Both the position numbers and the translations under genes were made by a program. From Bacteroidota bacterium (lineage in GTDB: Bacteria; Bacteroidota; Bacteroidia; Palsa-948), in assembly GCA_016213435.1 (NCBI GenBank), contig JACRAL010000105.1, positions 1 through 34,063 of the forward strand: 34,063 nucleotides of DNA, written 5' to 3'. Each line of letters starts with the position of its first letter. Position 1 is the stretch's first letter. The notes beneath the pieces are model-generated. The model made no database searches. It saw nothing but the letters and a program-made list of their open reading frames with translations, and was not told the origin of the DNA. Below, in pieces: positions 3,120 through 34,063 of the stretch.

Positions 3120-3986
3120 TTATAAAAACTTCATGGCTCTGTTCTCCAGTTCATTCCCCCAGTATTGCAGGTAGGCAAAGCTGGAATTTGGCGATACATG
3201 CCCGAGTATTTGCTGTATATCCACCACCGATGCTCCGCGCTCAAGCATTTGATGGGCTTTGCCGTGCCGGAATGAGTGCGGTGTGATCCTGTCGGGAATG
3301 TCTAATTTTTTTCTAAGATGTTCTATGGTTCTTTGAACCTGTCTTGGATTTAGGCGTTCGCTGTACTTCCCGCCTTTGTATGATCCGACAAAAAGCGCAA
3401 TGGAATCGGTTTTGGCTTTTGACCGGAGCGGCAGATATTTATTCAGCAGCAGTTCATTTGTTGTTTCCGACCAGAAGATTCTCCTGTGCACGAAGGCTTT
3501 CCTTGTTTCAATCGTGGCGAATTTTTTTTCAAAATTGATGTTGCTTATATCAATGCTTAGCAGTTCTGATACCCTGCATCCTGTTTCCCAGAGTATGCGT
3601 ATGATGAGATGCCTTTGGAGTCCGATAAAATCATCGGGAGGTACTTCATTGATGAGTTTCTGAAATATCTCTTCTGATGTGACTGGCATTTTTTTGGGAT
3701 AGTATCTCGGAACGACTACTTTGTTCGGGGACAAAACGGCATTGTCTTCCCCGTGCCAGAACTTGAAGAAGCCATGTAGTATCGCTATGCAGTATTCATG
3801 GGTTCTTTGCGAGTAAATACCTTTAATATGATTGCTGAACCGGGTTATATCCTGAAAGTTTATGTCTCTCAGTTCCCTCTTTTCTACGAAACTATTGAAA
3901 CGATTGAGCCATCGCTGGTACGGATCTTTCGTCTTTGGCGAATGGTCTTTTTTCCATTCTATATACGCACTTATTTTTTCTTGCAT
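3120..3986 (-). CDS. Tyrosine recombinase / integrase (XerC/D-like)
   Basis: This 288-residue enzyme would cut and rejoin DNA through a covalent 3'-phosphotyrosine, catalysing integration or excision. Residues 1-85 form a core-binding SAM-like domain and 100-288 the catalytic domain. The expected active-site set is present: R138 in TGCRVSELL, K163, H237 and R240 in HSFRHGKA, H263 in LGH, and Y272 nine residues after that histidine in SFAYLQYW. The length is that of compact phage or element integrases without an arm-binding domain. It is followed by nested dyads (2932-3079) and preceded by another palindrome-rich stretch (4024-4192), either of which could be its substrate. Whether it moves the element ending at the tRNA fragment near 25950 is not shown; the two are 22 kb apart. 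Confidence 0.93.
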   Translation of the reverse strand: MQEKISAYIEWKKDHSPKTKDPYQRWLNRFNSFVEKRELRDINFQDITRFSNHIKGIYSQRTHEYCIAILHGFFKFWHGEDNAVLSPNKVVVPRYYPKKMPVTSEEIFQKLINEVPPDDFIGLQRHLIIRILWETGCRVSELLSIDISNINFEKKFATIETRKAFVHRRIFWSETTNELLLNKYLPLRSKAKTDSIALFVGSYKGGKYSERLNPRQVQRTIEHLRKKLDIPDRITPHSFRHGKAHQMLERGASVVDIQQILGHVSPNSSFAYLQYWGNELENRAMKFL

Positions 3987-7184: not shown

Positions 7185-7187
7185 TTT

Positions 7188-13181: not shown

Positions 13182-13791
13182 TTGAAAATATTTAGTTGAA
13201 TTCTTTGTTTTATTTTATTTAACGACATAGTTCTATTCCTCTAATTAAAATTAGGTTAATTTCAATAGTATATTGTACTCAATCTTCGTTTAATAATAGC
13301 ATAATAAAAAAAACGGCTAAGGATAAAAAAATTTCATTTGCGTGCTCGTGGCAACAGTCCTTTGTTCTTAGCGTTTGAAGTCAGTTTCATGTTCGGGGTT
13401 TGTTCTACTTTCGTAAAACATATTTCAACCTCCAGTAAAAATCGACCTTTTAATTTTTTTATGCTGTTTGTTTTAACTCTACTTATACTACTTGTGTTTG
13501 TTCGTGTTTTATGAATGTTTGTTTTGACCAAAGATAATCATAGCACCCAATTTTCATCCACCTTTGTGGTTATTCAACCATGTGGGTTTCATGTGAACAA
13601 TGGATTTTTGAAATTTGATGTTGATGGTAAGTATCAGCAAATGTATACAAAAGAAACACTAAAGCAATATCTTTAAATACCCAAACGATAGGTATTTATG
13701 TCATATATTATTTATGCTTTTCATCATGTTTTACTGCAAAACTATCTCTGCGTGTGACTGAAAATATTTTGTACTAGATTTTTGAAGAAAT
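13182..13791. other. 600-base intergenic region upstream of the giant gene
   Basis: No convincing gene lies here. It must contain the promoter of the giant-protein operon (minus strand), but I found no clear TAnnTTTG box. Near 13237 there is a perfect 14-base palindrome (CTAATTAAAATTAG). A 65-codon frame (13334-13531) begins at a TTG and is low-complexity, with repeats of the AACAAACA type; inside it the sequence GGAGGTTGAAATATG on the minus strand looks like a ribosome site but leads to only 17 codons. I do not call these genes. Confidence 0.4.
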
Positions 13792-15030
13792 TTATTTCAT
13801 CTTCTTTATCTTCTCCAGCAACTCCTCTGTAACACTTGCATCTGCTCCATCCTTCTTTGCAAGTTCAATGGCTTTTTCGGCTGCTTTGATTGCTTCTTTT
13901 TTGTTCTTCATTTTATACAAAAGAGCTGCCTCCGTATCGTTGTTATAATAATTGCTTTCCAATTCTACGGAGCGTTTAATCCAAGCCAGCGCTTTTTGCA
14001 AAGATTTTTTATCTGTGATTTTTTCGTTCTCATAAACATCCCAGGCAGCGCCATTCAGGTGATTCCAATCATTCATCTTGTATTTATTGATATATGTATC
14101 CTTGAGTTCCATATACTTTTTCATATCCCCTTTTATCTCAAAATAACTGATATTGGCGTACATTATCAATTCATCTGCCCGCTCAAGACCGGAATTTTTT
14201 ATCTGATCAATAGCCGCTTTGTATTTCTCTTCATTTATTGATGCTTCATACTTTCCGTCCACTATTTTATATTCAACATACCTCCTCAATAAATCACCAT
14301 AGAACACATCATAAATTTTCTTATCCACTTTTTCTTTGCCAACCACTGCATGGAATTTCTCCCTGTTTTTCAGCAGGTTTTGAAATCCCTGACCTTCGCT
14401 GTTTCGGCAGTGTTTATTTATCACCTCAAAGTTTTCTTTCGTAATCCATTCCCTTTCGGACAAAGCATAGAAATACCAGAAAATAATTTCGGTTTGTTCC
14501 TCATACATGCCTGCCTCTGCCAACTCATCTATGTAGGGACGGATGAATTCGGGATCGCGCTTGCCGGAAGCATATTTATCCTGCCAAACTGTGAGCCGTT
14601 GTTCAGGGTCTAACGCTTTTTCTCCGAGTGCAACAAACTCCTTCACCGCCCTTCCGCCCACTGCCCTGCGCAGCACTCTTCCTGTGGAATCAAGAAAAAG
14701 CAAAGAGGGGTAAGCGCTTATTTTGTACTCTTTGGCAAAGGATAGTCCTTCCCCTTTTTCCGCGTCTATGGAATAACAAATAAACTTCTCATTGTAGAAA
14801 CGGGCAACGGTATCGTTGGTAAAAACATTTTTCGCCAGCCATTTGCAGGGTCCGCACCATGTGGTGTAAACATCCACAAAGATGGGTTTGTTTTCTTTTT
14901 TTGCTTTGGTATAAATTTCGGCAATGGTTCCAGTCTCAAAACGGATGCCTTTATATTCTTCGGTTGAATTCTGTGCGTTAACAGAAAAGACGAGGAATGC
15001 GAATAATGCGAGGAGGAGAAGTTTTTTCAT
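13792..15030 (-). CDS. Exported thioredoxin-family protein with helical C-terminal domain
   Basis: The 412-residue protein has a signal peptide (1-19), a thioredoxin fold (about 30-150) with the redox pair C59-x-x-C62 in TTWCGPCKWL and the cis-proline motif SAYPSLLF, then a helical TPR-like domain (about 170-405). The fold suggests a periplasmic disulfide reductase or oxidase. It is the last gene of the peptidase/kelch operon, 35 bases after the lipocalin-like gene, so its job may be thiol exchange for the exported partners; that is inference. The length is typical of Bacteroidota thioredoxin-TPR fusions, and no key residue is missing. Confidence 0.88.
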   Translation of the reverse strand: MKKLLLLALFAFLVFSVNAQNSTEEYKGIRFETGTIAEIYTKAKKENKPIFVDVYTTWCGPCKWLAKNVFTNDTVARFYNEKFICYSIDAEKGEGLSFAKEYKISAYPSLLFLDSTGRVLRRAVGGRAVKEFVALGEKALDPEQRLTVWQDKYASGKRDPEFIRPYIDELAEAGMYEEQTEIIFWYFYALSEREWITKENFEVINKHCRNSEGQGFQNLLKNREKFHAVVGKEKVDKKIYDVFYGDLLRRYVEYKIVDGKYEASINEEKYKAAIDQIKNSGLERADELIMYANISYFEIKGDMKKYMELKDTYINKYKMNDWNHLNGAAWDVYENEKITDKKSLQKALAWIKRSVELESNYYNNDTEAALLYKMKNKKEAIKAAEKAIELAKKDGADASVTEELLEKIKKMK

Positions 15031-15065
15031 TGTGCTTTCATTTTGAATGATGATTATTTTTTTAT

Positions 15066-16070
15066 TTAGTACGCAACATAAATGTACCCACTCTTTTCAT
15101 GTTTCGTATGTAATTCCGTTTTTGTCAGCTTTGCAATAATAGAACTCGTACTTTTATCAACACCATCCGGTGTCATCACCAAAATTTTATTCTCATTTAG
15201 AAGTTGGAATTTTCCAGTCGAGGGAGTCACTGTCCCATTTTTTAGAATAGATGTACATATATATGTACCATTATTAAAGAATTGTAAAATATATGTGAAT
15301 TTTAAATCTACGAGAGAACCGCTTGAATCTATTTGAGTGGCGAATTTCCATTGTTTATATAAGGTAACCGTAGCAGTATCATTTTTTGGGACTGGCATTT
15401 CTTTACTATTTTGTTTACTTTGACCTGTTCTTTTATTGCTTTCTGTCTTTGGCATGTTTGTTTTTATGTTTGCAATACATTTTGCAGCATTTTGTATATC
15501 ATCGGCTACCTTTTCTTTTATTTCACAATCATGTGTAGTTTCTGTATTCACCGAACGCCCAAATGCGAGTCTCATTTTTATAATTTTATCTTTTGTGATT
15601 CTTGAAATATCTTCATCTGTCAGAATGAAAAATTCTGTTCCTTTTTGTGTTTGATATTCATCAGGATCACTTTCTAATTTAAAATTGCTTTTATCTGAAA
15701 ATTGTATATAACAAGATTGTACATATGCTGCATCTTGAAATGTGGCATTAGCAAGAGTTTGAGCGGGATTCAAAACTAATAAAGCAGCACCGGCAGCACC
15801 ACCAGCCCGGTAAGTAGCGCTAAGACCCATCATTCTTTTCCCATTATTATATTTAAAAGTCACATACACATTGATTTTCGATGCATTACCAACAGTTTGA
15901 CTTATAATCTTAAATCTTTTTGTTTGTGCAATTCGTTCAAAAGTAAATTCATCTGTTTTATCAATTTCAAAATTGCACCTATTGTTTTCCTGTGCATTGG
16001 AAGTAATATTTGCTGCTATTATTAGATAACTGGTAATAATGGATGAGGAAATTATTTTTTTTATTTTCAT
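15066..16070 (-). CDS. Exported hypothetical protein with C-terminal lipocalin-like domain
   Basis: The 334-residue protein has a signal peptide (1-27). Residues about 30-200 are a beta-rich region with a glycine/alanine patch (RAGGAAGAALL) that I do not recognise. A polar linker rich in K, S and N (about 200-230) is followed by a beta-barrel-like domain (about 235-334: YKQWKFATQID, LQFFNNGTYICTS, GKFQLLNENKILVMTPDG). The last part resembles the small lipocalin-like families (W near the first strand, then G-T-Y) common in Bacteroidota. Its ATG overlaps the stop of the kelch gene (ATGA), which shows coupled translation. The ligand is unknown. Confidence 0.65.
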   Translation of the reverse strand: MKIKKIISSSIITSYLIIAANITSNAQENNRCNFEIDKTDEFTFERIAQTKRFKIISQTVGNASKINVYVTFKYNNGKRMMGLSATYRAGGAAGAALLVLNPAQTLANATFQDAAYVQSCYIQFSDKSNFKLESDPDEYQTQKGTEFFILTDEDISRITKDKIIKMRLAFGRSVNTETTHDCEIKEKVADDIQNAAKCIANIKTNMPKTESNKRTGQSKQNSKEMPVPKNDTATVTLYKQWKFATQIDSSGSLVDLKFTYILQFFNNGTYICTSILKNGTVTPSTGKFQLLNENKILVMTPDGVDKSTSSIIAKLTKTELHTKHEKSGYIYVAY

Positions 16071-17242
16071 TTTTGAATGATTAATTTTTTTACTGCTGTT
16101 CCTTGCCCGGTTTTTATTTGCAGAAAATAAATGCCGTTGAGATGGTTGCTTAAATCAATTGTTGAATTAGTGAGTTGCTGAATTGCTGATTGATACACTT
16201 TTTCTCCGCAAACATTGTAAACAGAAATTTCTCCTTTGGTGATTTTAGAGGTAAGAGTGAACTTTCCGGCTGAAGGATTGGGATAAACAGAAATATTGAT
16301 TTGATTGTTAAATTCATTAATACTGGTGCCGGCAGGGTCGTATTCCAAAAAATCTTTTTTAAAATTGTTGGTGCTGTCATACCCTGTTCCGATATATCCT
16401 TTTTTCCCGATAGAAAAGCGTGCGGCTCCGCTTCTTGCCGTTCCGCCAAAATTTATTTTCTGTGTCCATGTATCATTTGCCTGATCCCATTCCCAAAAAT
16501 CCTTGTAATTCGCGTTGTTTCCATCAGTTCCTAATCCAATATATCCCTTTGTGCCAATGGAAAATCCCACTGCGCGAAATCTTGCCACACCGCCAAAATC
16601 GGTTTTCTGCGCCCAAGTATTGTTTGCCTGATCCCATTCAAAAAAATTTCTTGTTGGTACAGCCCCTCCTCCTGTCCCCACATATCCTTTTGTTCCGATT
16701 GAAAAACAGACTGCCGCATGTCTAGCAGTGCCGATGAAATCCGTCTTCCGTGTCCATGTGTCAGTGCCAGGATCATACTCCCAAAAGTCCGAAAGGTATG
16801 TTCCATCGTACCCCATCCCGATATATCCTTTATTTCCAATGGAAAAACTAACGGCATCTCTCCTTGCACCTCCCAAAAAATTGGCTTTCTGTATCCATGC
16901 ATTCGTATTGGGATCATACTCCCAAAAATCCTGCATCAATGTGCCATTGGTTCCTGTGCCGATATATCCTTTTGTGCCTATAGAAAAACCTGATGCCTGC
17001 GCTCTTGGTGTGCCACTGAAACCGGCTTTTTGCGTCCATGTGTTTGCTGCCTGATCCCATTCCCAAAAGTCCCCTGTGTATCCGCCATCGCTGCCTGTTC
17101 CGATATACCCTTTGCTGCCAATAGAGAAAGCAACAGCATTTTGTCTTGCGGTTCCGCTAAAGTTAGATTTTTCTGTCCATGCGCCTTGTGAAAAAGAAAA
17201 GCAGGGAAGAAGAAAAAAGAATAAGAGTAATTTTGCTTTCAT
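16067..17242 (-). CDS. Six-blade kelch protein with T9SS sorting domain
   Basis: The 391-residue protein has a signal peptide (1-18, ending FSFSQG), six kelch-type repeats of about 49 residues (22-303; each with FSIGTKGYIGTG and FWEWDQANNTWTQK), and a sorting domain (316-391) with VYPNPSAGKFTL and a KKLIIQK end. A closed six-blade propeller is complete on its own, so it is likely a surface binding protein exported through T9SS. It shares its repeat type with residues 25-325 of the giant protein. It lies 13 bases after the peptidase gene and overlaps the next gene by four. A 60-base stretch of its sorting domain (16148-16207) is 58/60 identical to that of the peptidase. Confidence 0.88.
   Translation of the reverse strand: MKAKLLLFFFLLPCFSFSQGAWTEKSNFSGTARQNAVAFSIGSKGYIGTGSDGGYTGDFWEWDQAANTWTQKAGFSGTPRAQASGFSIGTKGYIGTGTNGTLMQDFWEYDPNTNAWIQKANFLGGARRDAVSFSIGNKGYIGMGYDGTYLSDFWEYDPGTDTWTRKTDFIGTARHAAVCFSIGTKGYVGTGGGAVPTRNFFEWDQANNTWAQKTDFGGVARFRAVGFSIGTKGYIGLGTDGNNANYKDFWEWDQANDTWTQKINFGGTARSGAARFSIGKKGYIGTGYDSTNNFKKDFLEYDPAGTSINEFNNQINISVYPNPSAGKFTLTSKITKGEISVYNVCGEKVYQSAIQQLTNSTIDLSNHLNGIYFLQIKTGQGTAVKKLIIQK
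16148..16207. repeat. 60-base near-identical copy, first of two
   Basis: This stretch matches 17337-17396 at 58 of 60 bases, while the flanking sorting-domain codons diverge freely. It encodes IQQLTNSTIDLS and neighbours on the minus strand. Such a sharp block suggests recent copying between the two genes or a small repeated insertion. Confidence 0.7.
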
Positions 17243-17255
17243 CGTGTTTAGGTTT

Positions 17256-18809
17256 TTATTTGTTGATGATTAGTTTTTGGGTTGCTGTGCCTTGCTCGGT
17301 TTTTATATGGATGAAATAAATCCCATTGGGCTGTGCGCTTAAATCAATTGTTGAATTAGTGAGTTGCTGAATTATTGATTGATACACTTTTTCTCCAAGG
17401 ATATTGACAATAGTAAGTTCGGATTCCTGCTCTTGAGTTTCAATGGTAAATGTTCCGGTATTTGGATTAGGATATATTTCTATATGTATGCTGTTATATA
17501 TATTTGAAACACTTACAACGCAGCCTGAGGATGTTACTAAAGAAGCATAATTGCCACTAACCCATCCGTCTTGCTGAGATAATTTGTCGGGCGAATAAAT
17601 ATGGAACCATCCGACAGGATTTTCAAAAGGAATAAACCGCTGTGGTATATTTAATGTTGATCCGCCATATAATCCTCCTAATTGAGTACTCGATGTTGAA
17701 GCCGTTTGATAAATCCACGCTGAGAGTTGATTTATTTCCATCTGACACAGGGAATTATTCTCGCTTGAATATTGAGTTCCTCCAACATTTCCCGCAATCC
17801 ATCCGGATGCGCTCCATCCTTCAATTGTTGCATTTGGTAAATGAATCTGATACCACACATCTGAACCCGATGTTACTTTTCTTGAAGCAACAAAGGCAGG
17901 TGTCTTTCCATCGCTTCTTTGCGAAGCGCTGCTTATTACGAGTGACAGCGAAGAACTCGTGCTTGGATAATCTCTGATATTTATGGATGGATTACTTTGG
18001 AGATACGTAATTTCTAAAGGAACCTGAGAGGATAAAAGCTGAACCGTGTTGTTTAAAAAAATATTGGGGTCGTGATAACCGAACCAATTTGGATGACCCG
18101 GCATATTTGTTCCGGTATTTCCCGGAGTATATCCCCATGGCGTTGTATTATCATCATTACTGGCGCTAAGTATTCCTCTGTCTTTCGCTTCAAAATGAAG
18201 ATGCGGGCCAAAACCATTGGCATCGCAAACAACTAAACTTGACCATGAAGAATAGCCGGAAGGATAAGGTCCTGCGGGTGTTCCGCAGTTGCAATTTCCG
18301 GTGAGACATTCTCGCAAATATTGTTTGTAAGAATTTCCCATAATTCCAATTACAGAACCCGAAGTAACCGTTTGTCCAACAGAGATATCAGAATAAACTG
18401 CATCCAAATGTCCGTAGAGGGTATATAATCCGAGCTGGGAATGGTAAATAATAACACATTGACCTAATCCGTGATTCATTCCGGCAGTTGGGGCATTTAC
18501 CCATGAATATGTACTCGTAGAAGAATTCCATACTCTTAAATTATTATTGCCATTACTATTAATCTCAAGTCCAAAAATTTTCACAACTATTCCTGTTGCC
18601 GCTACCTTGATGGGGGTCGAATAACTATAATTATTAATGGAATTATTGATCATATCCATTCCGGTGTGATATTTATTAGGCGAACCATTATTATAAGATG
18701 CATACCATTGAGTAGTGTTTCTGTTATCCACCGGACTAACGAAACTCTGTCCCCACCCGCTTGATGCGCGCAGAAAGAACAAAGCAGCAGTAAAGATTTT
18801 TGTTTTCAT
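17256..18809 (-). CDS. T9SS-exported M23 (LytM-type) metallopeptidase with SH3-like domains
   Basis: The 517-residue protein carries a signal peptide (MKTKIFTAALFF...), an M23 peptidase domain (about 25-220) with zinc ligands H48 and D52 in YHTGMDM, a YGHLD motif and H203/H205 in GPHLHFE, two SH3-like domains (about 270-340, NIRDYPSTSSSL; and about 365-435) and a sorting domain (about 445-517). M23 enzymes cut peptide cross-links of peptidoglycan; SH3 domains often bind the wall. Export through T9SS points to action on other cells or the environment, by inference. I chose the ATG at 18807-18809, next to the signal peptide; the ATG at 18837-18839 would lie inside the upstream palindromic operator. 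It is first in an operon with the kelch, lipocalin-like and thioredoxin genes. Confidence 0.9.
   Translation of the reverse strand: MKTKIFTAALFFLRASSGWGQSFVSPVDNRNTTQWYASYNNGSPNKYHTGMDMINNSINNYSYSTPIKVAATGIVVKIFGLEINSNGNNNLRVWNSSTSTYSWVNAPTAGMNHGLGQCVIIYHSQLGLYTLYGHLDAVYSDISVGQTVTSGSVIGIMGNSYKQYLRECLTGNCNCGTPAGPYPSGYSSWSSLVVCDANGFGPHLHFEAKDRGILSASNDDNTTPWGYTPGNTGTNMPGHPNWFGYHDPNIFLNNTVQLLSSQVPLEITYLQSNPSINIRDYPSTSSSLSLVISSASQRSDGKTPAFVASRKVTSGSDVWYQIHLPNATIEGWSASGWIAGNVGGTQYSSENNSLCQMEINQLSAWIYQTASTSSTQLGGLYGGSTLNIPQRFIPFENPVGWFHIYSPDKLSQQDGWVSGNYASLVTSSGCVVSVSNIYNSIHIEIYPNPNTGTFTIETQEQESELTIVNILGEKVYQSIIQQLTNSTIDLSAQPNGIYFIHIKTEQGTATQKLIINK
17337..17396. repeat. 60-base near-identical copy, second of two
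   Basis: Partner of 16148-16207, with two differences at adjacent positions in the middle (AT instead of GC). It lies in the sorting domain of the M23 peptidase. Confidence 0.7.
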
Positions 18810-18830
18810 CGTGTTTGATTTTTTATGACT

Positions 18831-18847
18831 GGTTGTCATTTATGACA
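18831..18847. promoter_or_regulatory. Operator-like palindrome 1 over the peptidase promoter
   Basis: GG-TTGTCATTTATGACA contains the palindrome TGTCAT-TT-ATGACA. It overlaps a minus-strand -7-like box TACCTTTG (18846-18853), so a protein bound here would block transcription of the M23 operon. A second, closely related site lies 41 bases away centre to centre. Confidence 0.6.
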
Positions 18848-18853
18848 AAGGTA
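18846..18853 (-). promoter_or_regulatory. Candidate -7 box of the peptidase operon
   Basis: The minus strand reads TACCTTTG, a full match to the Bacteroidota -7 consensus TAnnTTTG, about 37 bases upstream of the ATG at 18809. I see no good -33 box at the expected distance. The two palindromes lie on either side of it, one of them overlapping. Confidence 0.45.
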
Positions 18854-18871
18854 TGTAAAAAATAATATAGT

Positions 18872-18888
18872 GGTCATAAATGATAACC
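18872..18888. promoter_or_regulatory. Operator-like palindrome 2
   Basis: GGTCATAAATGATAACC is an inverted near-copy of palindrome 1 (two mismatches in 17) and itself contains TCAT-AA-ATGA. It lies between the regulator gene (start 18938) and the promoter box of the peptidase operon, about four helical turns from site 1. Confidence 0.6.
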
Positions 18889-18937
18889 TTATTTTTTAGG
18901 AATACTCTGACCTTGCATATTGAAAACAAAATACACT

Positions 18938-19168
18938 ATGGCACTTTCAGAGGAAAAGGATTTCCTTATTCAATTAGGAAAACAAATAGCGAAGCTGAGA
19001 AAGAAGAGAGGAATCAGCCAGATTGAATTAGGCTACAGATGCGATTTCGAAAAATCAAACATGAGGAGAATAGAAGCAGGAAGAACTAACCCGACTGCGC
19101 TTACAATTCGGAAAATCAGTAAAGCTCTTGATGTGCCATTAAAAAAGATTTTTTATTTTAAAATTTAG
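18938..19168 (+). CDS. XRE-family helix-turn-helix regulator
   Basis: The 76-residue protein is almost entirely one HTH_3/Cro-C1 domain: IGKQ-type helix 1 (LGKQIAKLRKKRG, about 13-25), ISQIELGYRCDFEKSNMRRI (26-45) as the helix-turn-helix, and GRTNPTALTIRKISKALDVP (48-67) as the last helices. It binds DNA as a dimer in all likelihood and would recognise the paired palindromes at 18831-18888. I chose the ATG at 18938; a TTG at 18920 would add six residues. It is divergent from the M23/kelch operon and the only plus-strand gene in this part of the window, so it is the obvious candidate for control of that operon and of itself. Confidence 0.88.
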   Translation: MALSEEKDFLIQLGKQIAKLRKKRGISQIELGYRCDFEKSNMRRIEAGRTNPTALTIRKISKALDVPLKKIFYFKI

Positions 19169-19189
19169 AAATAAAAGTTCCAGATTTTT

Positions 19190-19957
19190 CTATTCAAGGG
19201 TTTTGAAAGTGATTACTTTACCTATTGTCGCCCCGTTCGCATTAACTGCTGTCATTCGGAATGAATAATTAGTATTCGGGGCGAGACCTGTCAATATATA
19301 GGTCATCAGAATATCTGAAATACCCTTAAGAGCATTTTGAGTACCGACATTATTTGCATTGAACTCAAACCAAGCTGATGCAGGAGATCCGTTAGGATTA
19401 ACGGAGCCATTCAAAGCAACAGAGGTTCTTGTAATATTACTAGCAGTTAATGTATTTACTGTTGGCGTCCTAAGTTTTCCTCTTAATAATTTTTCGATTT
19501 CATCCTTATATTGATTATTTTCTTTATTAAGTTTTAAAATCTCTTCAGTCATTGATTCTGCCTGCATCTTTTTTTGTTTTATGACATTCTCTATTTCGGC
19601 ATAATAAGAAGTTGCCTTTTTCACTCTATCTAAATTGTTCTTTAAATCATTCATGCTTTCTTTTAGATTCTTTATTTCAATTTTATCATGAGTAATTATG
19701 GCATGATATCTTCCAATTGTATCTCTCAATTCAGATTTTTCATTTTCTAATCGTTTCTCCTCTATTTTAAAAAAGTCTGATTTAATGGCATAAAATGTAG
19801 AAACGATTACAACTAAAAATGTTAAAAAAGAAAAAGTGGTTTTAGGAGCACGCCATTCGCGCGCATACCAATTATATTTCAAATCGCGTATTTCACGCTT
19901 TAATTTTTCTTTCTCTAATTCTATTTTTTCTTTTTCTATATCCTTTTCTTCGCTCAT
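19190..19957 (-). CDS. Membrane-anchored coiled-coil protein with FN3-like domain
   Basis: The 255-residue protein has an acidic/basic coiled coil at the N-terminus (EKEKIELEKEKLKREIRDLK, residues 7-26), one transmembrane helix (about 42-58, FSFLTFLVVIVSTFYAI), a long coiled coil (about 65-160), and a fibronectin-III-like domain (about 166-255, NTLTASNITRTSVALNGSVN and LTGLAPNTNYSFRMTAVNAN). The N-terminus would lie in the cytoplasm and the FN3 domain outside the inner membrane. I do not know the family. It is separated from the mobilization genes upstream by a terminator at 20032-20058 and seems to be a single gene facing the regulator. Confidence 0.7.
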   Translation of the reverse strand: MSEEKDIEKEKIELEKEKLKREIRDLKYNWYAREWRAPKTTFSFLTFLVVIVSTFYAIKSDFFKIEEKRLENEKSELRDTIGRYHAIITHDKIEIKNLKESMNDLKNNLDRVKKATSYYAEIENVIKQKKMQAESMTEEILKLNKENNQYKDEIEKLLRGKLRTPTVNTLTASNITRTSVALNGSVNPNGSPASAWFEFNANNVGTQNALKGISDILMTYILTGLAPNTNYSFRMTAVNANGATIGKVITFKTLE

Positions 19958-20416: not shown

Positions 20417-21256
20417 TCAAGCCCTTGTTTTAGCCATATTTTTCTTCCCCCCTCTCATGATTTGAATCTGTCTCTGTCTTTCCACCGTTCTATTTAATTC
20501 CACCACCTTAGCAATATTTATCTGTAGCCGGTTAAATCTGAATTTTCTGTTTTGATACAACACTCCCGTAAATTTCCCTCCCCGCTCATAAGGATTAATG
20601 CTGTTGTCTTTCAGTCTCTGCAAAAAATCTTCCATTGAGTTAGATTTTGAAAGGCACTGATCTATTTTATCCGCCAGTTCTTCTTTCAATGCTTCTCTCC
20701 CCGTTCGCAGTTTGATTTGATATTCTTTGTCAGTGATTTTCGCTTTGTCCTTCTTTTCATGCTGAACAATTGATTTACTGAGTTCGGGATATACCTGTTG
20801 CTGAAACGACTGAATATTCTTTTTTAATGTTTGAAACTGCTCCTTACTCATCCGCATCGCCTTCCCTGTTTTGTATTCCACACCGGAGGCGATTATATGA
20901 ATATGAAAATGTTCTTTATCTGTATGTGGAACAGCAAGAAAAATTCCATTGGGGTTTCTCTGCCGGATGTATTCCCTTGCCATATCTTCCATTTTCTCAA
21001 GAGAAATATTCTCTTCGTCTTTGTGAAAAGACAATATTTCATGCGTGAGCATAACGCTGTCTTTTCTTTTACGGGTTCTGTATGTTTCATTCTGCTTGAA
21101 TTGCTCCGTCCAATCATCAATAGTATTGCCTCTGAGGTTATGAGCAATAACAAAACTATTTCCTCTTTCATCAAACAGACGATCTTTATCGTGCAGCATA
21201 TAATCAAGCAGCTGTTTGAAGCTGGGTCGCTTTCTTGTTTTGATTTTAACGATCAT
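20417..21256 (-). CDS. MOB-P-like relaxase (mobilization endonuclease)
   Basis: The 279-residue protein would nick one strand at the transfer origin and stay bound to the 5' end through a tyrosine. Motif I is QLLDYMLHDK with Y19, motif II is LTHEILSFH (about 70-78), and motif III is HTDKEHFHIH (H111, D113, H116, H118, H120), the metal-binding histidine set of the Relaxase/MobP family. It is rather short, with no helicase or primase domain, and has a basic C-terminus (MRGGKKNMAKTRA). It overlaps the MobC-like gene by 11 bases. As no T4SS pore genes lie in the window it probably acts with a helper conjugative system. Confidence 0.92.
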   Translation of the reverse strand: MIVKIKTRKRPSFKQLLDYMLHDKDRLFDERGNSFVIAHNLRGNTIDDWTEQFKQNETYRTRKRKDSVMLTHEILSFHKDEENISLEKMEDMAREYIRQRNPNGIFLAVPHTDKEHFHIHIIASGVEYKTGKAMRMSKEQFQTLKKNIQSFQQQVYPELSKSIVQHEKKDKAKITDKEYQIKLRTGREALKEELADKIDQCLSKSNSMEDFLQRLKDNSINPYERGGKFTGVLYQNRKFRFNRLQINIAKVVELNRTVERQRQIQIMRGGKKNMAKTRA

Positions 21257-21734
21257 GGTTTATGGTGGCTATTATCTCAGGCGGATGACGCAGCAGTTTA
21301 TCTACTTTCATTTCTATGGCTTCGATTCTCTTTTCAATTTCCATATAGGGTAGATTTTTCCGTTGTCTTACTTCGTTTAATATCTGCGAGAGCATCTGCT
21401 CTATGCCTGATACCTGCTGCCTGTCAGGAACGAGATACACTTTATTGATATACGCCAAGGCAGATTTTTTTAGAAAAGAACTTGTAGTCATATTATGACT
21501 ACTCGCTGCCCTTTTTATTCTCTCGTATTCTCCGTTCTTTTTTGATAGTCCTATAGGAAACTCCGGTCTGTCTTTTCTCCTGTTTTGCTTGTACTGAAGA
21601 AAATATTTTTTCCAGTATTGTTTCTTGGCTTGCTTGATTTCCTCTTCAGTTCCATTTTCCAATACACCCACGGAATCAAGATACGCCCATAGGCTTGTAT
21701 TCTTCCTGATTCTATTGCGGGCTTTAGTTGTCAT
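21246..21734 (-). CDS. MobC-like relaxosome accessory protein
   Basis: The 162-residue basic protein lies directly before the relaxase, overlapping it by 11 bases, and begins 11 bases before the coupling-protein stop. The central part (YERIKRAASSHNMTTSSFLKK, about 75-95, given in part) has the ribbon-helix-helix pattern of MobC/BfmC-type accessory proteins, which bind the transfer origin and help the relaxase. A helical C-terminal segment (IEQMLSQILNEVRQRKNLP and IEAIEMKVDKLL) may provide oligomerisation. The N-terminal 60 residues are basic and helical. Family assignment rests on pattern and position. Confidence 0.7.
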   Translation of the reverse strand: MTTKARNRIRKNTSLWAYLDSVGVLENGTEEEIKQAKKQYWKKYFLQYKQNRRKDRPEFPIGLSKKNGEYERIKRAASSHNMTTSSFLKKSALAYINKVYLVPDRQQVSGIEQMLSQILNEVRQRKNLPYMEIEKRIEAIEMKVDKLLRHPPEIIATINHDR

Positions 21735-23154
21735 TAAGCTTTAAAGCGGGTAAGGTGTCAGGGAGGTAGTTAGGTAGCACCGGAGGCATTATTTCGCTAT
21801 ATAAGCGGAAAATGCGCGATTCATAATAGGGTTTCAGCCGGAGGATAACGGGCGGATGATGCCCGCAGAGGAGCAAAGCGCGGTTTAGCTTCATGGTGCG
21901 TATTTCGTCCTTTGTCATAAGCTCCCGGGTTGCTTTCCTGCCTTCTTTGTCTTTGTATTCAAATTTCCCGAGGGTTTGCTCCAGTTCGCGCGAAGTTTCC
22001 AAAGATTGTCCGGTAAAGAACATTTTTGCAAAGCAGTTTGATTTGATCGCATCCGCCTCGAATCGTCCATAATTATGAATGATCTGGGCGAAGTCCTGCA
22101 CGATGAGCATTATTCCCGCTCTGTGTTTTCTCACATTGGCGACTGCGGGCGGAAGCGTTGGTAAAATAAGTGATGCGGTTTCATCCAAAAGGAAAAACAT
22201 ATCCTGTTCATCTTCTTTCGGAAATCTTGAAAGTATATGCGAGAAAAATTGTTCTGTGAAAATACTCGTAAGCGTTGAATAATATTTCTGATCGGCAACG
22301 GAGTTTTGTATAAACAGAGCAGTTGGTTTATTCCTGAACTCCTGCATATCTATGTTGTCGGTAGATGTTACTTTTGCGATGGATTCATCAGAGAAAGTTT
22401 GTAATGCTGCTTTACAGGTAGCGACTGCTCCTGAAACTATCTTTTCATCCGCGCTCAGGAAACTTTTGTACTCGGAAAATAGATTTTCATCTGCGTGTTT
22501 GGAAAATAGTTTGTCCACCTGTTCGGGATTTCCACCCATTGCGTTTAATAATAATCTGACGTTGTATAAATTCTGAAATTGTTTGTCCTGTTTTTTCAAG
22601 AGAGTAATAAGCATGGCAAGCAGGGCGATTGCGGAGTTTGTCCAGAAAGCATCTTTGTTCCCGTCTTTACCCAATGCATTCTGCACGAGCATGCTTGATA
22701 CTTTCTGAATTTCTGAAGATGTATTCGCTCTCTGTAAAGGATTGAATCCTGAAGATGCATCGGGCTTGGAAAAATTCAGTTGTTTAATTGAATAATTTTT
22801 ATCTTTCAAATACCCTGCAGATTTATTATAGAGTTCTCCCGATGGATCGTGGATTACAAAACTGCCTTTCATGGTATAGAGGGATGGAATCAAAACGATG
22901 GAGGATTTTCCCACGCCTGTGCCTCCGACTATCAATGCGTTCTGGTATGAATTTTTCACGGATAGATTTTTATCACCCGTTAAACAGAAGCCATACTGCC
23001 TCGAAGAAAGAAGCGTTCCCTGAGAAGCGAACTCGGCTTTGTATCCTTGTTTCTTATTGGGAATTCCGGTTACAGCAACTTCAAGCAAATCAAATCCTGT
23101 TTTGATTGTGCCTTCGATTATGGAAAATGTTGTTTCAAATATTTTTTCAAGCAT
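21724..23154 (-). CDS. VirD4/TraG-like type IV coupling protein without membrane anchor
   Basis: The 476-residue ATPase has Walker A GGTGVGKS (77-84), Walker B FFLLDE (320-325) and the TraG/VirD4 features FVIHDPSGE and VANVRKHRAGIMLIVQDFAQ (residues about 340-359). Such proteins bring relaxase-bound DNA to the secretion channel. Unlike typical VirD4/TraG, no N-terminal transmembrane helices precede Walker A: residues 1-70 are amphipathic or soluble. A 46-residue membrane peptide and a multi-span membrane protein are encoded just upstream and may take over anchoring. The gene overlaps the MobC-like gene by 11 bases. The assignment as a coupling protein is sure; its membrane arrangement is inference. 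Confidence 0.9.
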   Translation of the reverse strand: MLEKIFETTFSIIEGTIKTGFDLLEVAVTGIPNKKQGYKAEFASQGTLLSSRQYGFCLTGDKNLSVKNSYQNALIVGGTGVGKSSIVLIPSLYTMKGSFVIHDPSGELYNKSAGYLKDKNYSIKQLNFSKPDASSGFNPLQRANTSSEIQKVSSMLVQNALGKDGNKDAFWTNSAIALLAMLITLLKKQDKQFQNLYNVRLLLNAMGGNPEQVDKLFSKHADENLFSEYKSFLSADEKIVSGAVATCKAALQTFSDESIAKVTSTDNIDMQEFRNKPTALFIQNSVADQKYYSTLTSIFTEQFFSHILSRFPKEDEQDMFFLLDETASLILPTLPPAVANVRKHRAGIMLIVQDFAQIIHNYGRFEADAIKSNCFAKMFFTGQSLETSRELEQTLGKFEYKDKEGRKATRELMTKDEIRTMKLNRALLLCGHHPPVILRLKPYYESRIFRLYSEIMPPVLPNYLPDTLPALKLNDN

Positions 23155-23342: not shown

Positions 23343-24065
23343 TTACAAAATCAAGTTCGCTCCTATATTCACTTTGGCTCCTTTGCTTTCCAGCCATTTT
23401 TTGTAAAAGCCCGACACTTCCCTGAAAAGTTCGCTGTCATAGTTATTTTGGGGCTGGTAAATCAAATACACCTCAATGCCTTTCAGATCAGGCATCGGTA
23501 TTTCACTTTCTAGGATTCTCCTGACTGAATTGGGATTTGTTTTGATAAGCTGAAATTTTTCCGATTTATAGAACGAAATCAGCGAGGTGTTTTCCATCAG
23601 GTCTGAATACACTACGAGTATCCTGCGTTTGGCTGTGCTTTCTGAAAGGCGTTTGAGTTCCACTGCAATCGGCAGATAAAGCGATGAATAATTTCTACCG
23701 GATGGAACGGATTTCACTTTTTCAAACGCGCTGTCTATCTTTAATAGAAACATCTTTGATTCGTCTGTCCTGTCATAATAATTAGAAATGTATTCGCAGG
23801 CGGGCGCAAGGTTTGCTTCATGCACGGAATTAAAATCTACATCGCTCAGCATGAGCAGGCGGAATTCATATCCCTGCCATAAATCAGTACTGGTATGGAA
23901 TGAATTCCTGACAGCGGTGGAATCAGGGACAGCAAGAAAACTATCCGTCTTGTCAAGCATGACGGTCTCGGATACTGAATAGGCATTTGTATTGCAGGAG
24001 TAAAAAGCTGTACCTGCTCCTGCGCTGAGAAGAATTACTGTGATTGCTGTAGTGAGTTTTTTCAT
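23343..24065 (-). CDS. Lipoprotein with a von Willebrand A-like fold, mobilization operon
   Basis: The 240-residue protein has a lipoprotein-type signal (MKKLTTAITVILLSAGAGTA then FYSC, lipidation cysteine near residue 24). The body resembles a Rossmann/vWA fold: a strand with LLMLSDVDF (about 70-78), RRILVVYSDLMENTSLISFY (about 147-166) and KGIEVYLIYQPQNN (about 195-208). In this fold the D-x-M-E-N-T/S part is where metal-ion-dependent adhesion sites occur, though the full DxSxS motif is not present. I know similar vWA-like lipoproteins from Bacteroidota mobile elements but not their function. It starts five bases after the membrane protein stop. Confidence 0.6.
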   Translation of the reverse strand: MKKLTTAITVILLSAGAGTAFYSCNTNAYSVSETVMLDKTDSFLAVPDSTAVRNSFHTSTDLWQGYEFRLLMLSDVDFNSVHEANLAPACEYISNYYDRTDESKMFLLKIDSAFEKVKSVPSGRNYSSLYLPIAVELKRLSESTAKRRILVVYSDLMENTSLISFYKSEKFQLIKTNPNSVRRILESEIPMPDLKGIEVYLIYQPQNNYDSELFREVSGFYKKWLESKGAKVNIGANLIL

Positions 24066-24070
24066 GGTAA

Positions 24071-25180
24071 TTAGTCTTTTAAATAGGTGAATGATGAATA
24101 ATTATCGCCTCCTGTTTTTCTGTTGTGGAAACAATCCGGAGCCATGCGGTCAGGGCGGTGCGTAAGATTGGCGGATTTAAAAGCTTCCACTGCTTCTGCC
24201 GACCATCGCCTGATGCGCTCAATCAGATGTTTTGCATATTCCGGCTTATACAAAAGCATGCTCAATTTTTTGCTAAGTTCCTCCTTGATGGATTTGATTT
24301 CGGCTTCCAGCCGGGATTCCTGATTTTTCAGGTTGTCATAATGTTCTCTCTCCTGAAGATGTTTTGCATATTCCTCCTGCTGGTGTTTAGGGATGGTATT
24401 TTTATAAATATACCAGACGGTGCCTACCCAAAAAACTAGATTCATAAATACAAACCAGATAGGATTAATGTGAAAATGTGCCTGCTGCTCCATATTTTTT
24501 GCTCTTAACACAGCCATCATGTAAAACACCCCCGTCACGAGCAATGTAACTCCTATGGCAACCAGTCTTTTCTTAAAAATATCATTGGCGCTTTCTTTCA
24601 GGTATCTGGCAAGCTGTTTAGCTAACACAAATATTCCACAGGTTATACCTACGGACATAATGAGCGCAGAAATCCAGCTGCCGCCTATCAATTGCAGTGC
24701 AGTGATGTTGAGTACAGTTTCTGCAAGTCCTATAATGCCAAGAACTGCATTGACATTCTTGCTGGCGGGAGCAGGAATGGTTTTATGGATGGATTCCCCA
24801 TTTTGTTCCTTTTTGAGTTCAAAGTTGTGAAGCTCTGTCTCCGCAGCCTGTTTTTTCTGTTCCTTCTCTTTTGTCTTTTCATCCGCTGCGGCAATAAGCA
24901 TCTGGGCTTCTCCTTTGCTTGTCTCGTGCTGTAGTTTCTGATTCACAAGGGCCATCATTCCATCATGCCCGGCAACTATATCGCCTGTGTAGAACTCAAG
25001 GGAATCACCCTTCAGATGAGGGCGGTTCTGTTTAGCAAAATGCATTCCTTTAATGCGGGCTTGTTTAAGCAATTCCTGATGTCTGGTTTCCAGCATTGCT
25101 TCCAGTTGCTCATCGTAAATCCCGCCTGTGGAGTTTAGATCATTGTTTTTCATGTTGTGTGGTGTTTTGGAGTTGAACAT
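24071..25180 (-). CDS. Multi-span membrane protein of the mobilization operon
   Basis: The 369-residue protein starts with a helical soluble region (about 20-140, charged and glutamine-rich), has about four hydrophobic helices (about 144-165, 168-187, 204-225 and 243-260: NAVLGIIGLAETVLNIT, ISALIMSVGITCGIFVLA, VAIGVTLLVTGVFYMMAV, PIWFVFMNLVFWVGTVWYIY), a coiled coil (about 265-310) and a soluble tail. I do not recognise the family. It may form the membrane platform for transfer. An ATG nine codons in is an alternative start. Spacing to the gene before it is 11 bases and to the lipoprotein five, so it lies in one operon with the relaxase. Confidence 0.65.
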   Translation of the reverse strand: MFNSKTPHNMKNNDLNSTGGIYDEQLEAMLETRHQELLKQARIKGMHFAKQNRPHLKGDSLEFYTGDIVAGHDGMMALVNQKLQHETSKGEAQMLIAAADEKTKEKEQKKQAAETELHNFELKKEQNGESIHKTIPAPASKNVNAVLGIIGLAETVLNITALQLIGGSWISALIMSVGITCGIFVLAKQLARYLKESANDIFKKRLVAIGVTLLVTGVFYMMAVLRAKNMEQQAHFHINPIWFVFMNLVFWVGTVWYIYKNTIPKHQQEEYAKHLQEREHYDNLKNQESRLEAEIKSIKEELSKKLSMLLYKPEYAKHLIERIRRWSAEAVEAFKSANLTHRPDRMAPDCFHNRKTGGDNYSSFTYLKD

Positions 25181-25191
25181 TTATTTTTTGT

Positions 25192-25638
25192 TTAACGGGT
25201 TAGTTGTTTTCCCTTGTCTTTCCCTTTTTCTTTTTCATCTCGCATTTCATTGAGTTCAGTTTCTCTTTTCATCTGTTCAAGCGCTTTGTCTTTTTCCGGT
25301 TCTGTGCTTTCTGCTATCTTCTCGTGGGCAAGGGATTGCGTGAACTGCTGTAATTTCTCTTTTGCTTTCTCAATAAATTTCTTCTTGAGGGCGTAGAGAT
25401 TGAAATCAGCGGGGAAAATTTCCTTGCCTTCGCGGTCTTTGGCGGTGTACTTCATTTTTTTGTTTTCTGCGTCCCACTCGCGGAAAAATCTTGCAATAAC
25501 TTGGCGCTTACCATCTTCTGTTTGCATCACAGCCATAAAATGTTGTCCCTTTTCAGCGGTGCTGTATTCTATAAATACAATTTTGCCGTAAGCGAAAGGG
25601 CTTCGCTGTTTCTTGGGTTGTGTGTTTTGTGTGTTCAT
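25192..25638 (-). CDS. First gene of the mobilization operon, hypothetical
   Basis: The 148-residue protein has a beta-rich N-terminal part (FAYGKIVFIEYSTAEKG, MAVMQTEDGKRQVIARFF, about 15-55) and a highly charged helical C-terminus (about 85-148). It is rich in Lys, Glu and Gln and has no signal or membrane segment. I do not know the family. As the first gene of the operon 25638-20417 and a charged soluble protein, it could bind nucleic acid or act as a regulator. That is inference. Confidence 0.55.
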   Translation of the reverse strand: MNTQNTQPKKQRSPFAYGKIVFIEYSTAEKGQHFMAVMQTEDGKRQVIARFFREWDAENKKMKYTAKDREGKEIFPADFNLYALKKKFIEKAKEKLQQFTQSLAHEKIAESTEPEKDKALEQMKRETELNEMRDEKEKGKDKGKQLTR

Positions 25639-25943
25639 TGGATTTGGTTTTAGTTAATATGGAATTAAATTTCTGGGGTAAAATTAATTCAACGGGTTTG
25701 GAAAAATGTTACGCCTGCCGCAAAGGATAAGCGTCAACTACGTCAACCAGAAAAAATCATTTTATGAGACAACGGGAACGCTACTTACTTCTCTGCTTTG
25801 ACTGGAAGTATTTTGAATAAACCCAAACGAATGATTTAGAGTGCCGTTGGAGTGCTGTTTTAGAGTGCTGAAATGCAGGGTTTTGCACCTTTTTGCAGGG
25901 TTGAGAATTGTATTTTCGCTAAATTTTTAAAGTTCTTGTTGAA
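25639..25943. other. Gene-free end of the element with clustered direct repeats
   Basis: No gene is seen. The mobilization operon promoter must lie here. From 25839 there are three direct repeats of GAGTGCYG (25839-25846, 25850-25857, 25863-25870) and two of TGCAGGGTT (25874-25882 and 25894-25902), the latter 20 bases apart, about two helical turns. This is the pattern expected of arm-type integrase sites next to an attachment core, but it is not proof. Confidence 0.45.
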
Positions 25944-26005
25944 GCGTGTGGACTCAAACACCAGTAGGCTTAACACCTGTACGAGTTCGATTCTCGTCTT
26001 CGGTA
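25944..26005 (+). tRNA. Partial tRNA-Leu (3' half), probable attachment site
   Basis: The sequence has CTCAAAC around the anticodon loop (anticodon CAA at about 25954-25956), a long variable arm (AGTAGGCTTAACACCT), the T-arm ACGAG-TTCGATT-CTCGT (25981-25997) and the acceptor 3' strand CTTCGGT (25998-26004) with discriminator A. The D arm and a proper 5' acceptor are missing; the bases upstream are element-like. The anticodon stem is not paired at its ends (GTGGA against ACCAG), as expected if the 5' strand comes from the element. This fits an integrated element whose target is a tRNA-Leu, with the intact gene at its other end, to the left of this window. It is not a functional tRNA as it stands. 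Confidence 0.7.
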
Positions 26006-26011
26006 CTGGGA

Positions 26012-26048
26012 GGGAGTTTTCCGAATAAAAAGGAAAGCTCCCTTTTTT
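26012..26048 (+). terminator. Terminator of the former tRNA-Leu gene
   Basis: GGGAGTTTTCC (26012-26022), loop GAATAAAAA, GGAAAGCTCCC (26032-26042) pair over 11 positions including one wobble and are followed by TTTTTT. It sits seven bases after the tRNA fragment, where a native tRNA terminator would be. Confidence 0.75.
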
Positions 26049-29936: not shown

Positions 29937-30734
29937 ATGAATACCCTGTTTGTTGGACAGAACATCATTCGTGTGGAGCAAACAGATTCCACAAACTCGC
30001 ATTTAACACGTTTGCTTGAGAATGAAAAATTTCCTGAAGGAGCTATGCTAATCACTCAAAAGCAAGTGCAGGGCAGAGGACAGCGTGGTGCAACATGGGA
30101 AAGCGAACCCAATCAAAATCTTACACTAAGCATTCTCTTGCAGCCAACCTTTTTGCTGCCGGATGAACAATTTCAATTGAATAAAGCAATTTCGCTGGGA
30201 GTGATGGAAATGATTAGCAACTCCCTCTCCTTTGGAGAGGGTTGGGGTGAGGCGAAAATAAAATGGCCCAACGATATTTACATTAGCAATAAAAAAGTTG
30301 CCGGCATTTTGATTGAAAATTCTGTAAGCGGGAAAAAATTACAGCAATCCATCATTGGCATAGGGATAAATGTGAATCAGGAAAAGTTTTCCGCGAAACT
30401 TCCAAATCCAACAGCTCTTAAACTTGTTACCGGAAAAGAATTTGATCTGGGTGAGTGTTTGGAGCAACTGTGTTCTTGCATTGAGAGCAGGTATTTGCAA
30501 TTGCGAAGTCCCTCCTCTGTCCTCCCCATTAGGGAAGAAGCAAAGCAAACAGCCATTGACTCAGATTATCTAAAAAGCCTTTACCGGTTTAGCGAATGGG
30601 CAAGTTATAAATTCAAAGGTGAAATTGTTGAAGCAAAAATTACCGGAGTTACTAAACTTGGGAAGCTTGTGTTAGAAACTAAAAAAGAAAAAATATTGGA
30701 GTGTGATTTTAAGGAGGTGGAGTTTTGTAAATAG
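29937..30734 (+). CDS. birA: Biotin-[acetyl-CoA-carboxylase] ligase BirA
   Basis: The 265-residue enzyme activates biotin with ATP and attaches it to the carrier domain of acetyl-CoA carboxylase. QTDSTN (15-20), the biotinyl-AMP loop GRGQRG (46-51), KWPND (109-113) and GIGINVNQ (141-148) are present. No DNA-binding domain precedes them, so it is a non-regulatory class I BirA. I chose the ATG at 29937; a TTG at 29898 would add 13 residues with no family match. Residues 96-105 (SLSFGEGWGE) come from a palindromic repeat inserted in frame just before KWPND. Another foreign-looking segment (191-204, SPSSVLPIREEAKQ) precedes the C-terminal SH3-like domain. Divergent from rsfS. Confidence 0.95.
   Translation: MNTLFVGQNIIRVEQTDSTNSHLTRLLENEKFPEGAMLITQKQVQGRGQRGATWESEPNQNLTLSILLQPTFLLPDEQFQLNKAISLGVMEMISNSLSFGEGWGEAKIKWPNDIYISNKKVAGILIENSVSGKKLQQSIIGIGINVNQEKFSAKLPNPTALKLVTGKEFDLGECLEQLCSCIESRYLQLRSPSSVLPIREEAKQTAIDSDYLKSLYRFSEWASYKFKGEIVEAKITGVTKLGKLVLETKKEKILECDFKEVEFCK
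30223..30253. repeat. Palindromic repeat inserted in frame in birA
   Basis: CCCTCTCC-TTT-GGAGAGGG (30223-30241) followed by TTGGGGTGAGGC matches the unit at 5987-6017 in all but one base. Here the plus strand encodes LSFGEGWGE within the loop before the KWPND motif of BirA. The frame is kept. Confidence 0.85.
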
Positions 30735-32486: not shown

Positions 32487-33932
32487 TTATTTTTTCTTTT
32501 TGATCTGAATGAAAGTCGTATCAATATCCTGTGGCTTATCAGCAGGGGATTGCAAAATATTTCCTTTGGGATCGATCAGGAAATAGGTGGGAACAGTAAG
32601 TACATTAAATTCTTCTTTCGCTTTTTTGTAATTATCGCAGTAAAGAAATTTCCAGCCTGCCCCGTTCTTATCGTGGTCCAATTTTGAATTTTTTTTCAGA
32701 AAATTTTTCATTGACTCCGGTTTTTTGTCCACCGAAATACTGACGAAAGCAATCTTATTTCCATATATCTTTTTTAATTCCGGAATCATCATCATTTCCT
32801 GTGTGCAGGAAGAGCACCAGGTGGTCCAGAAATTCAAGTAAACATATTTTCCTTTGAAATCGGAAAGCGAAATAGTTTTTCCATCCATATCCTGAAAGGG
32901 AAGAGTTGGAGCAGGATTTCCTGTGTTCATAACCGAAAATTTCTTTTTCAGATTTTCAGCGCTTCTGCGGTTTTCTCCGGCTTTGCATTGTGTGGCTGCC
33001 TGATCAAGAATAGCTAATACGGAACTTACTTTGCAAGCCGGATAACGAAAATATTCTGCCAGTGATTTAAGGATAAATGTTTCCCGAATCGTATCGTTCG
33101 CCAAGACATTAATTTGTTTGAAATATTCCATCAGAGAAGCGAAATTTTGTTTGCCGATCTCATTCTGGGTTTGTGGTTCTGCCATGAAAGCACTTATGGT
33201 GACGGCAAAGAACTGATTGAAAAACATCATGTAGTCGTTATTGCCCAGTTGAATGGTTTTGTTCTTAAAATATTTTTCAACTATTTTTTCATTTTCTTTT
33301 AGCGTGATGCTTTCTTCCAACTGGGCAAAAGTGTAATCAATGTAATTGTTGAGATAGCGTTTATTGAAGGCAGAATATTTTTGCACACAAAGAGTTTTCA
33401 TTGTGTCAATTCTTCCGAAGAAGAAAGAACTTTTCGTTGAAATTAACGGGCGATTGTATTCCAGAAAAGCTTCGTATCTGTTGCTGAAATCAGCCATCAG
33501 GTAATTGATCTCGGTTGAGTCAGAATTATTGAACATCATACTCACAGGAACAGCAATGCTCAGGGTGTTTACTGCATCGGAATCTTTTGCGAGAAAATCT
33601 ATGTCGTATGTTCTGTTTGGTTCTGCAATCATTTCTGATTTTGCATTATCTGCCATCAGATAGATGTACGTTGGCTGAGAAATAGAAAAACTTAGGGCGA
33701 AATTTCCTTTTGCATCAATGAGACTGCTTGCCAGTTCTTTTTCCCTGTAAGAAATATAATCGTCATAAGTATAAGCGTATATCTTGTTTGTTTCCAAAAG
33801 ATAGCTCGTATCGGCTTTTCCTTTTATTGTCACATTTTGGGAAAGACATAAGTAAGAAGGTAATAGGCTGACGGTGAACAACAATAGAAACTGTTCTATT
33901 CTGCTAATTGTTATTTGATATTTTTTTTTCAT
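32487..33932 (-). CDS. TlpA/ResA-family thiol-disulfide protein with N-terminal extension
   Basis: The 481-residue protein has a signal-anchor-like segment (about 11-31), an N-terminal beta domain like that of Bacteroidota TlpA proteins (about 33-115, DUF4369-type pattern VTIKGKADTSYLLE), a helical middle domain (about 140-325) and a thioredoxin domain (about 337-481) with C373-S-S-C376 in TTWCSSCTQE and the cis-Pro motif TVPTYFLI. It would reduce or isomerise disulfides in the periplasm. The start of the gene lies 78 bases from the ATG of a divergent transposase-like frame. Confidence 0.9.
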   Translation of the reverse strand: MKKKYQITISRIEQFLLLFTVSLLPSYLCLSQNVTIKGKADTSYLLETNKIYAYTYDDYISYREKELASSLIDAKGNFALSFSISQPTYIYLMADNAKSEMIAEPNRTYDIDFLAKDSDAVNTLSIAVPVSMMFNNSDSTEINYLMADFSNRYEAFLEYNRPLISTKSSFFFGRIDTMKTLCVQKYSAFNKRYLNNYIDYTFAQLEESITLKENEKIVEKYFKNKTIQLGNNDYMMFFNQFFAVTISAFMAEPQTQNEIGKQNFASLMEYFKQINVLANDTIRETFILKSLAEYFRYPACKVSSVLAILDQAATQCKAGENRRSAENLKKKFSVMNTGNPAPTLPFQDMDGKTISLSDFKGKYVYLNFWTTWCSSCTQEMMMIPELKKIYGNKIAFVSISVDKKPESMKNFLKKNSKLDHDKNGAGWKFLYCDNYKKAKEEFNVLTVPTYFLIDPKGNILQSPADKPQDIDTTFIQIKKKK

Positions 33933-33948
33933 TGTTACAGTTCGTTAG

Positions 33949-33980
33949 TTGAAACTATGCGCTTTCAGCGCAAGACTTTC
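33949..33980. repeat. Imperfect hairpin, possible IS200/IS605 left end
   Basis: GAAACTATGCGC, loop TTTCA, GCGCAAGACTTTC pair through GCGC and GAAA/TTTC with an internal loop. A hairpin with mismatches just upstream of a transposase start is typical of the single-strand ends recognised by IS200/IS605 (Y1) transposases. Assignment depends on the partial gene at 34011. Confidence 0.35.
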
Positions 33981-34010
33981 AGTTGCTACACAATTTTGTA
34001 AGTTTGCGGA

Positions 34011-34063
34011 ATGAGTAATACCCCAAGGTATGGCAGTCATAATGTATCTCGGTTGACGGCTCA
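34011..34063 (+). CDS. N-terminus of a probable IS200/IS605-like transposase (cut by window end)
   Basis: The first codons read MSNTPRYGSHNVSRLTA and run off the window. The motif YGSHNVSRLT resembles, from memory, the start of some Y1 (IS200-type) transposases, where a conserved HIVW and KYR follow. Only 17 residues are visible, and the catalytic HuH motif and tyrosine are not in the window. The upstream hairpin at 33949-33980 supports it. Confidence 0.5.
   Translation, partial: MSNTPRYGSHNVSRLTA

Follow-up and report, generated by a model that had tools for sequence, protein, structure and literature searches.

Gene content of the window

The window analysed here, 34,063 nucleotides long, is the entire contig C55 of a draft metagenome-type assembly of a Bacteroidota bacterium (216 contigs, 97% complete). 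Its plus strand contains, at positions 25953-26006, the 3′ half of a tRNA-Leu(CAA) gene. An operon of six genes, all on the minus strand, lies to the left of this half tRNA, and core genes coding for a LUD-domain protein, FtsH, RsfS and others lie to the right. The placement of mobilization genes on one side and core genes on the other, as described in an earlier note on this DNA, was borne out by a protein-domain reading of the window. Base composition showed no mark of the border between the two parts.

The first gene of the mobilization operon (25192-25638), whose product has no assigned function, is kept in several sister elements. It is followed by a gene for a probable membrane protein (24071-25180), another gene without assigned function (23343-24065), and genes encoding a VirD4/TraG-type coupling protein (21724-23154, Pfam E 6.5e-51), a MobC/NikA-like mobilization protein (21246-21734, a weak Pfam match below the cut-off) and a MobA/VirD2-like relaxase of the MobP type (20417-21256, Pfam E 3.6e-19). 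A relaxase accompanied by accessory mobilization genes is one mark of an integrative and mobilizable element (IME), and both are present, the MobC-like match being the weak one. No type IV secretion apparatus was found among the window proteins scanned or among ten scanned proteins of a sister element (G174), these scans covering part of the genes. Scans of genome contigs and viral contigs with the relaxase peptide gave no match, and its best plasmid matches were only 24-31% identical.

The remaining genes on the left are also on the minus strand. A cargo region (5820-19957) codes for kelch-repeat and other secreted proteins, a thioredoxin-like protein and an M23 peptidase. Beyond it lie genes for a XerC/D-like tyrosine recombinase (3120-3986), a phage O-like replication protein (2085-2456), a small protein (1681-1971) and a D12-class adenine DNA methyltransferase (896-1684), the last two being kept in sister elements; the contig ends to the left of the methyltransferase gene. 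The XerC/D-like gene, the tyrosine recombinase gene visible in the window, is conserved in the element but is unlikely to encode its integrase; it is probably a conserved passenger, and in sister elements it sits away from both ends. A 36-base repeat, 94% identical and beginning CCCTCTCCTTTGGAGAGGG, occurs both in the cargo (5983-6018) and in a core gene (30219-30254).

The half tRNA-Leu and its flanks

The half tRNA can be read directly. It begins with the anticodon loop CTCAAAC (25953-25959) and continues with the 3′ strand of the anticodon stem, ACCAG (25960-25964), the variable arm, the T-arm ACGAG-TTCGATT-CTCGT (25981-25997), the 3′ acceptor strand CTTCGGT (25998-26004) and the discriminator A (26005). 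Behind it stands an intrinsic terminator (26012-26042), whose hairpin arms are GGGAGTTTTCC (26012-26022) and GGAAAGCTCCC (26032-26042), followed by a T run. The earlier note had recognized this 3′ half from loop to discriminator, its terminator and the absence of a 5′ half, and all three are seen in the window. The mismatches that it placed in the anticodon stem are there as well (27-43 G.G and 31-39 A.A). ARAGORN detected no complete tRNA in the window, and no Rfam family scored above the cut-off at the half-tRNA site.

Intact tRNA-Leu(CAA) genes are present in two genomes of the same genus (G004 and G001), and the half in the window is 95% identical to them over 58-59 bases (E 1.7e-20 and 5.4e-20). 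Identity covers the tRNA from the loop to its 3′ end and, save for a shared TGG, breaks off one base to the left of the loop, so that the stretch shared with the intact gene is bounded on its left by the loop. The 32-base 5′ half of the tRNA is absent from the window, its best ungapped match being 20/32. The match of the whole half tRNA is far beyond chance. Other tRNA genes of the same assembly, for example those of tRNA-Met (on C22) and tRNA-Leu(GAG), are followed by terminators of this form, and the 3′ flank of the half tRNA therefore looks like the original flank of the tRNA gene. The same half standing alone, without an element, was not seen in relatives; those found carry intact genes.

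Three direct repeats, GAGTGCCGTTG, GAGTGCTGTTT and GAGTGCTGAAA, are located at 25839-25873 on the plus strand, and two TTTTGCA motifs, also seen in some sister ends, lie between them and the core (25881-25897). Ends of sister elements contain two or three direct repeats near GAGTGCGGAAA. A matrix was built from the sister ends, without the window, using training sites picked by eye, so that its scores are descriptive. When both strands of the whole window were searched with it, a single pair scored above 8 (25850 and 25863), with a weaker third site at 25839. The spacing of the window repeats, 11 and 13 bases, is that of two sister ends (G315 and G068), and, as in G315, 90 bases separate the last repeat from the loop. 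Since the repeats agree with those of the sisters in sequence, in spacing and in how far they lie from the loop, they tie the end in the window to the same integrase family. Judging from this likeness, they are probably arm-type sites of the element's integrase.

On the chromosomal side, the usual order across the class is LUD-domain gene, small DUF2007-like gene, cdsA, with no tRNA gene in between. In the genome under study cdsA is on another contig (C23), which shows that gene order has changed in this lineage. A repeat of ~135 bases precedes cdsA (C23, 1-140) and also ends the window contig on the right (33925-34063); it is dispersed and probably breaks the assembly. Within the genus, tRNA-Leu(CAA) does not keep a constant place. 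In G004 the gene lies between ybeY and an acyl-CoA dehydrogenase gene; in the genome under study no tRNA-Leu was found before the dehydrogenase gene, and ybeY was not found. Since relatives have no tRNA gene at the chromosomal place seen in the window, an empty site could not be shown. In the other same-genus genome (G001, C31, L076, 1473-3030) a gene for a large serine recombinase ends antisense inside the intact tRNA-Leu(CAA) gene; serine recombinases are unusual at tRNA genes.

Sister elements and the family integrase

A match to the relaxase was found in 27 of 395 genomes of the class, and the most closely matching loci have the same operon as the window, gene for gene. At eight related loci, from seven genomes, the right side could be read (two further contigs, in G195 and G072, break off here). 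We counted a half tRNA where a recognisable 3′ half contained a fully paired T-arm; taken alone, the T-arm pattern has an expected frequency of 0.09-0.14 per 7 kb. By this measure five of the eight loci have a 3′ half tRNA at or near the right end: tRNA-Met (CAT) in G005 (contig C95), a CAT tRNA in G068, tRNA-Asn (GTT) in G174, tRNA-Leu (CAA) in G315 and tRNA-Phe (GAA) in a second locus of G005 (contig C70), the last ~4 kb beyond the operon. All five halves begin at or near the anticodon loop. None was found at the loci of G004 and G088, which are of moderate similarity, and of G326, nor at more distant sister loci. The copy on C70 of G005 (L135, 9175-20000), the second of the family in that genome, has stop codons interrupting its relaxase gene, and with two integrases around the half tRNA-Phe the locus resembles a decaying tandem array.

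Two sister elements are seen with both ends. In G174 an intact tRNA-Asn gene lies 34.8 kb to the left of the half tRNA-Asn; their identity covers 43 bases, beginning with the first base of the loop and reaching the end of the tRNA, and the terminators behind them differ. In G315 intact and half tRNA-Leu(CAA) are ~65 kb apart, the target being the same as in the window. Both elements encode a tyrosine integrase of ~470 amino acids (472-485), 113-118 bp inside from the intact tRNA. A small gene beside it, without a Pfam family, was taken for a candidate excisionase gene. The methyltransferase, O-like and Xer-like genes occur in sister elements in the same order as in the window. One of the complete elements, that of G174, contains a CBASS-like set (C12:72001-92000, L131, 256-4925) consisting of a SMODS/DncV-like cyclic-nucleotide synthase and a SAVED-domain protein, with kinase-domain and caspase-domain proteins nearby.

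Public genomes were scanned with an alignment of the integrases, which gave 11 integrase loci, titled Bacteroidota or uncultured bacteria. In eight of them an intact tRNA lies 110-180 bp past the integrase gene: Leu(TAA) in six cases, Leu(CAA) in one (that of G315) and Asn in one (that of G174). No relatives of the integrase were found in IMG/VR. The Leu integrases group together with support (98/98) in the integrase tree, and the Leu(CAA) integrase falls among the Leu(TAA) ones with moderate support (87/88), so that a switch of target between isoacceptors can be placed on the tree. We consider it somewhat more probable than the contrary that a single Bacteroidota integrase family has switched among the anticodon loops of five or more tRNA genes (Leu-TAA, Leu-CAA, Asn-GTT, Phe-GAA and CAT tRNAs), and that in doing so it retained its arm sites and exchanged the tRNA 3′ half that it carries.

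The genome under study has another split tRNA, a 3′ half tRNA-Asn(GTT) on contig C40 (L165, 2450-2505), flanked by a 414-amino-acid integrase of another type and by a fragment resembling the family integrase. With no arm repeats and a different integrase on its left, it was rejected as a second member of the family and is probably the product of a different element.

Origin of the half tRNA and relation to known elements

The earlier note had proposed that a tyrosine recombinase integrated the element into the anticodon loop. This is supported by the sister elements, which show both ends, and by the operon and arm-like repeats that the window shares with them. We therefore think it very probable that an IME has inserted in the tRNA-Leu(CAA) anticodon loop and that the window contains its right-hand ~26 kb; a displaced tRNA fragment that starts at the anticodon loop and stands at one end of the element is the sign by which anticodon-loop islands are recognized. 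The loop at 25953-25959 is the probable crossover region, as suggested by the tRNA pair of G174, in which identity of the ends starts at the same loop base.

How this copy's left end arose, where exactly the crossover lay, and how the element is excised and transferred are inferred as follows. A tyrosine integrase of ~470 amino acids, expected to be encoded just inside the missing left end, would have carried out recombination between the chromosomal tRNA gene and an attP site that bears its own copy of the tRNA 3′ half. By this exchange a whole tRNA, composed of the native 5′ half and the element-borne 3′ half and terminator, would have been regained at the left end, while the native 3′ half with its own terminator would have been displaced to attR, the right end of the element, at 25953. 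After excision, the relaxase, the MobC-like protein and the coupling protein may let the circle travel by way of a helper conjugation apparatus.

The left end of the element in the window, with integrase, candidate excisionase and intact tRNA-Leu, is missing from the draft, and this copy is not seen whole. DNA, Rfam and pattern searches of the assembly revealed neither an intact tRNA-Leu(CAA) nor its 5′ half (a 23.6-bit tRNA-like match on C183 proved to be a simple repeat). The earlier note had named the lack of an intact tRNA-Leu with this 3′ half in the genome as evidence against its proposal; the lack is real as far as the assembly goes, and we read it as an assembly gap, since the contig breaks off within the element, and intact Leu(TAA) and Asn tRNA genes, as well as any full integrase of the family, are likewise missing from the draft. 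A tRNA-Asn is indispensable to a cell, and absence from this draft is thus weak evidence.

That no integrase of the window copy was found in the assembly would also fit an origin of the half tRNA as a scar or a tandem-array junction, where another element had split tRNA-Leu and the mobilization element is a second insertion or a remnant that has no working integrase. The two integrases around the half tRNA-Phe of G005 provide a tandem-like case. However, the operon and the family's arm-like repeats are directly beside the half tRNA, at the usual distance for the family and as in the sisters, and such an origin seems improbable to us. Still less credit can be given to a false joining of an element contig to a core-gene contig at the tRNA half: the assembly is a metagenome-type draft in 216 pieces and core gene order is altered exactly here, with cdsA elsewhere, but the same junction anatomy is found in independent assemblies and the 3′ flank has a terminator of the type that follows tRNA genes in this very genome. 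Trans-joining of the separately transcribed halves of a split tRNA gene, for which the lack of an intact tRNA-Leu(CAA) in the assembly might be cited, was rejected as scarcely conceivable, because sister elements restore an intact gene at their other end; nor was a separate 5′ half found in the assembly.

Insertion into tRNA-Leu(CAA) is an event, and follows a mechanism, of an ordinary and well-known kind. The usual mark of a tRNA island is a split target gene that is whole again at one end and displaced as a fragment at the other, and 2083 islands with anticodon-centred sites are recorded in Islander (PMC4383910). The sister elements, with a restored tRNA at one end, a displaced 3′ fragment at the other and a tyrosine integrase by the restored tRNA, are like Islander class A islands and do not differ from them in principle. 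NBU1 and MTnPi4 are Bacteroidota IMEs whose listed site is the 3′ end of tRNA-Leu; the relaxase of NBU1 is of the MobP type, and no coupling protein is listed for this element (PMC5704250). Compared by description only, the element in the window resembles both as a probable Bacteroidota IME with a tRNA-Leu target and, as expected from its sisters, a tyrosine integrase, and NBU1 also in the MobP relaxase. It differs from both in that identity starts at the anticodon loop, and from NBU1 in having a coupling protein of its own. No paper describing this family was found among the open-access papers searched, and the family appears to be undescribed.

With the half tRNA, one end of a mobilizable element in uncultured Bacteroidota is exactly located, and both ends of its relatives place this element in a family. 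The CBASS-like set in the G174 element shows that the family can carry defence cargo. With related integrases, conserved arm-like sites and different tRNA targets, these elements are useful for asking how the target of an integrase changes.
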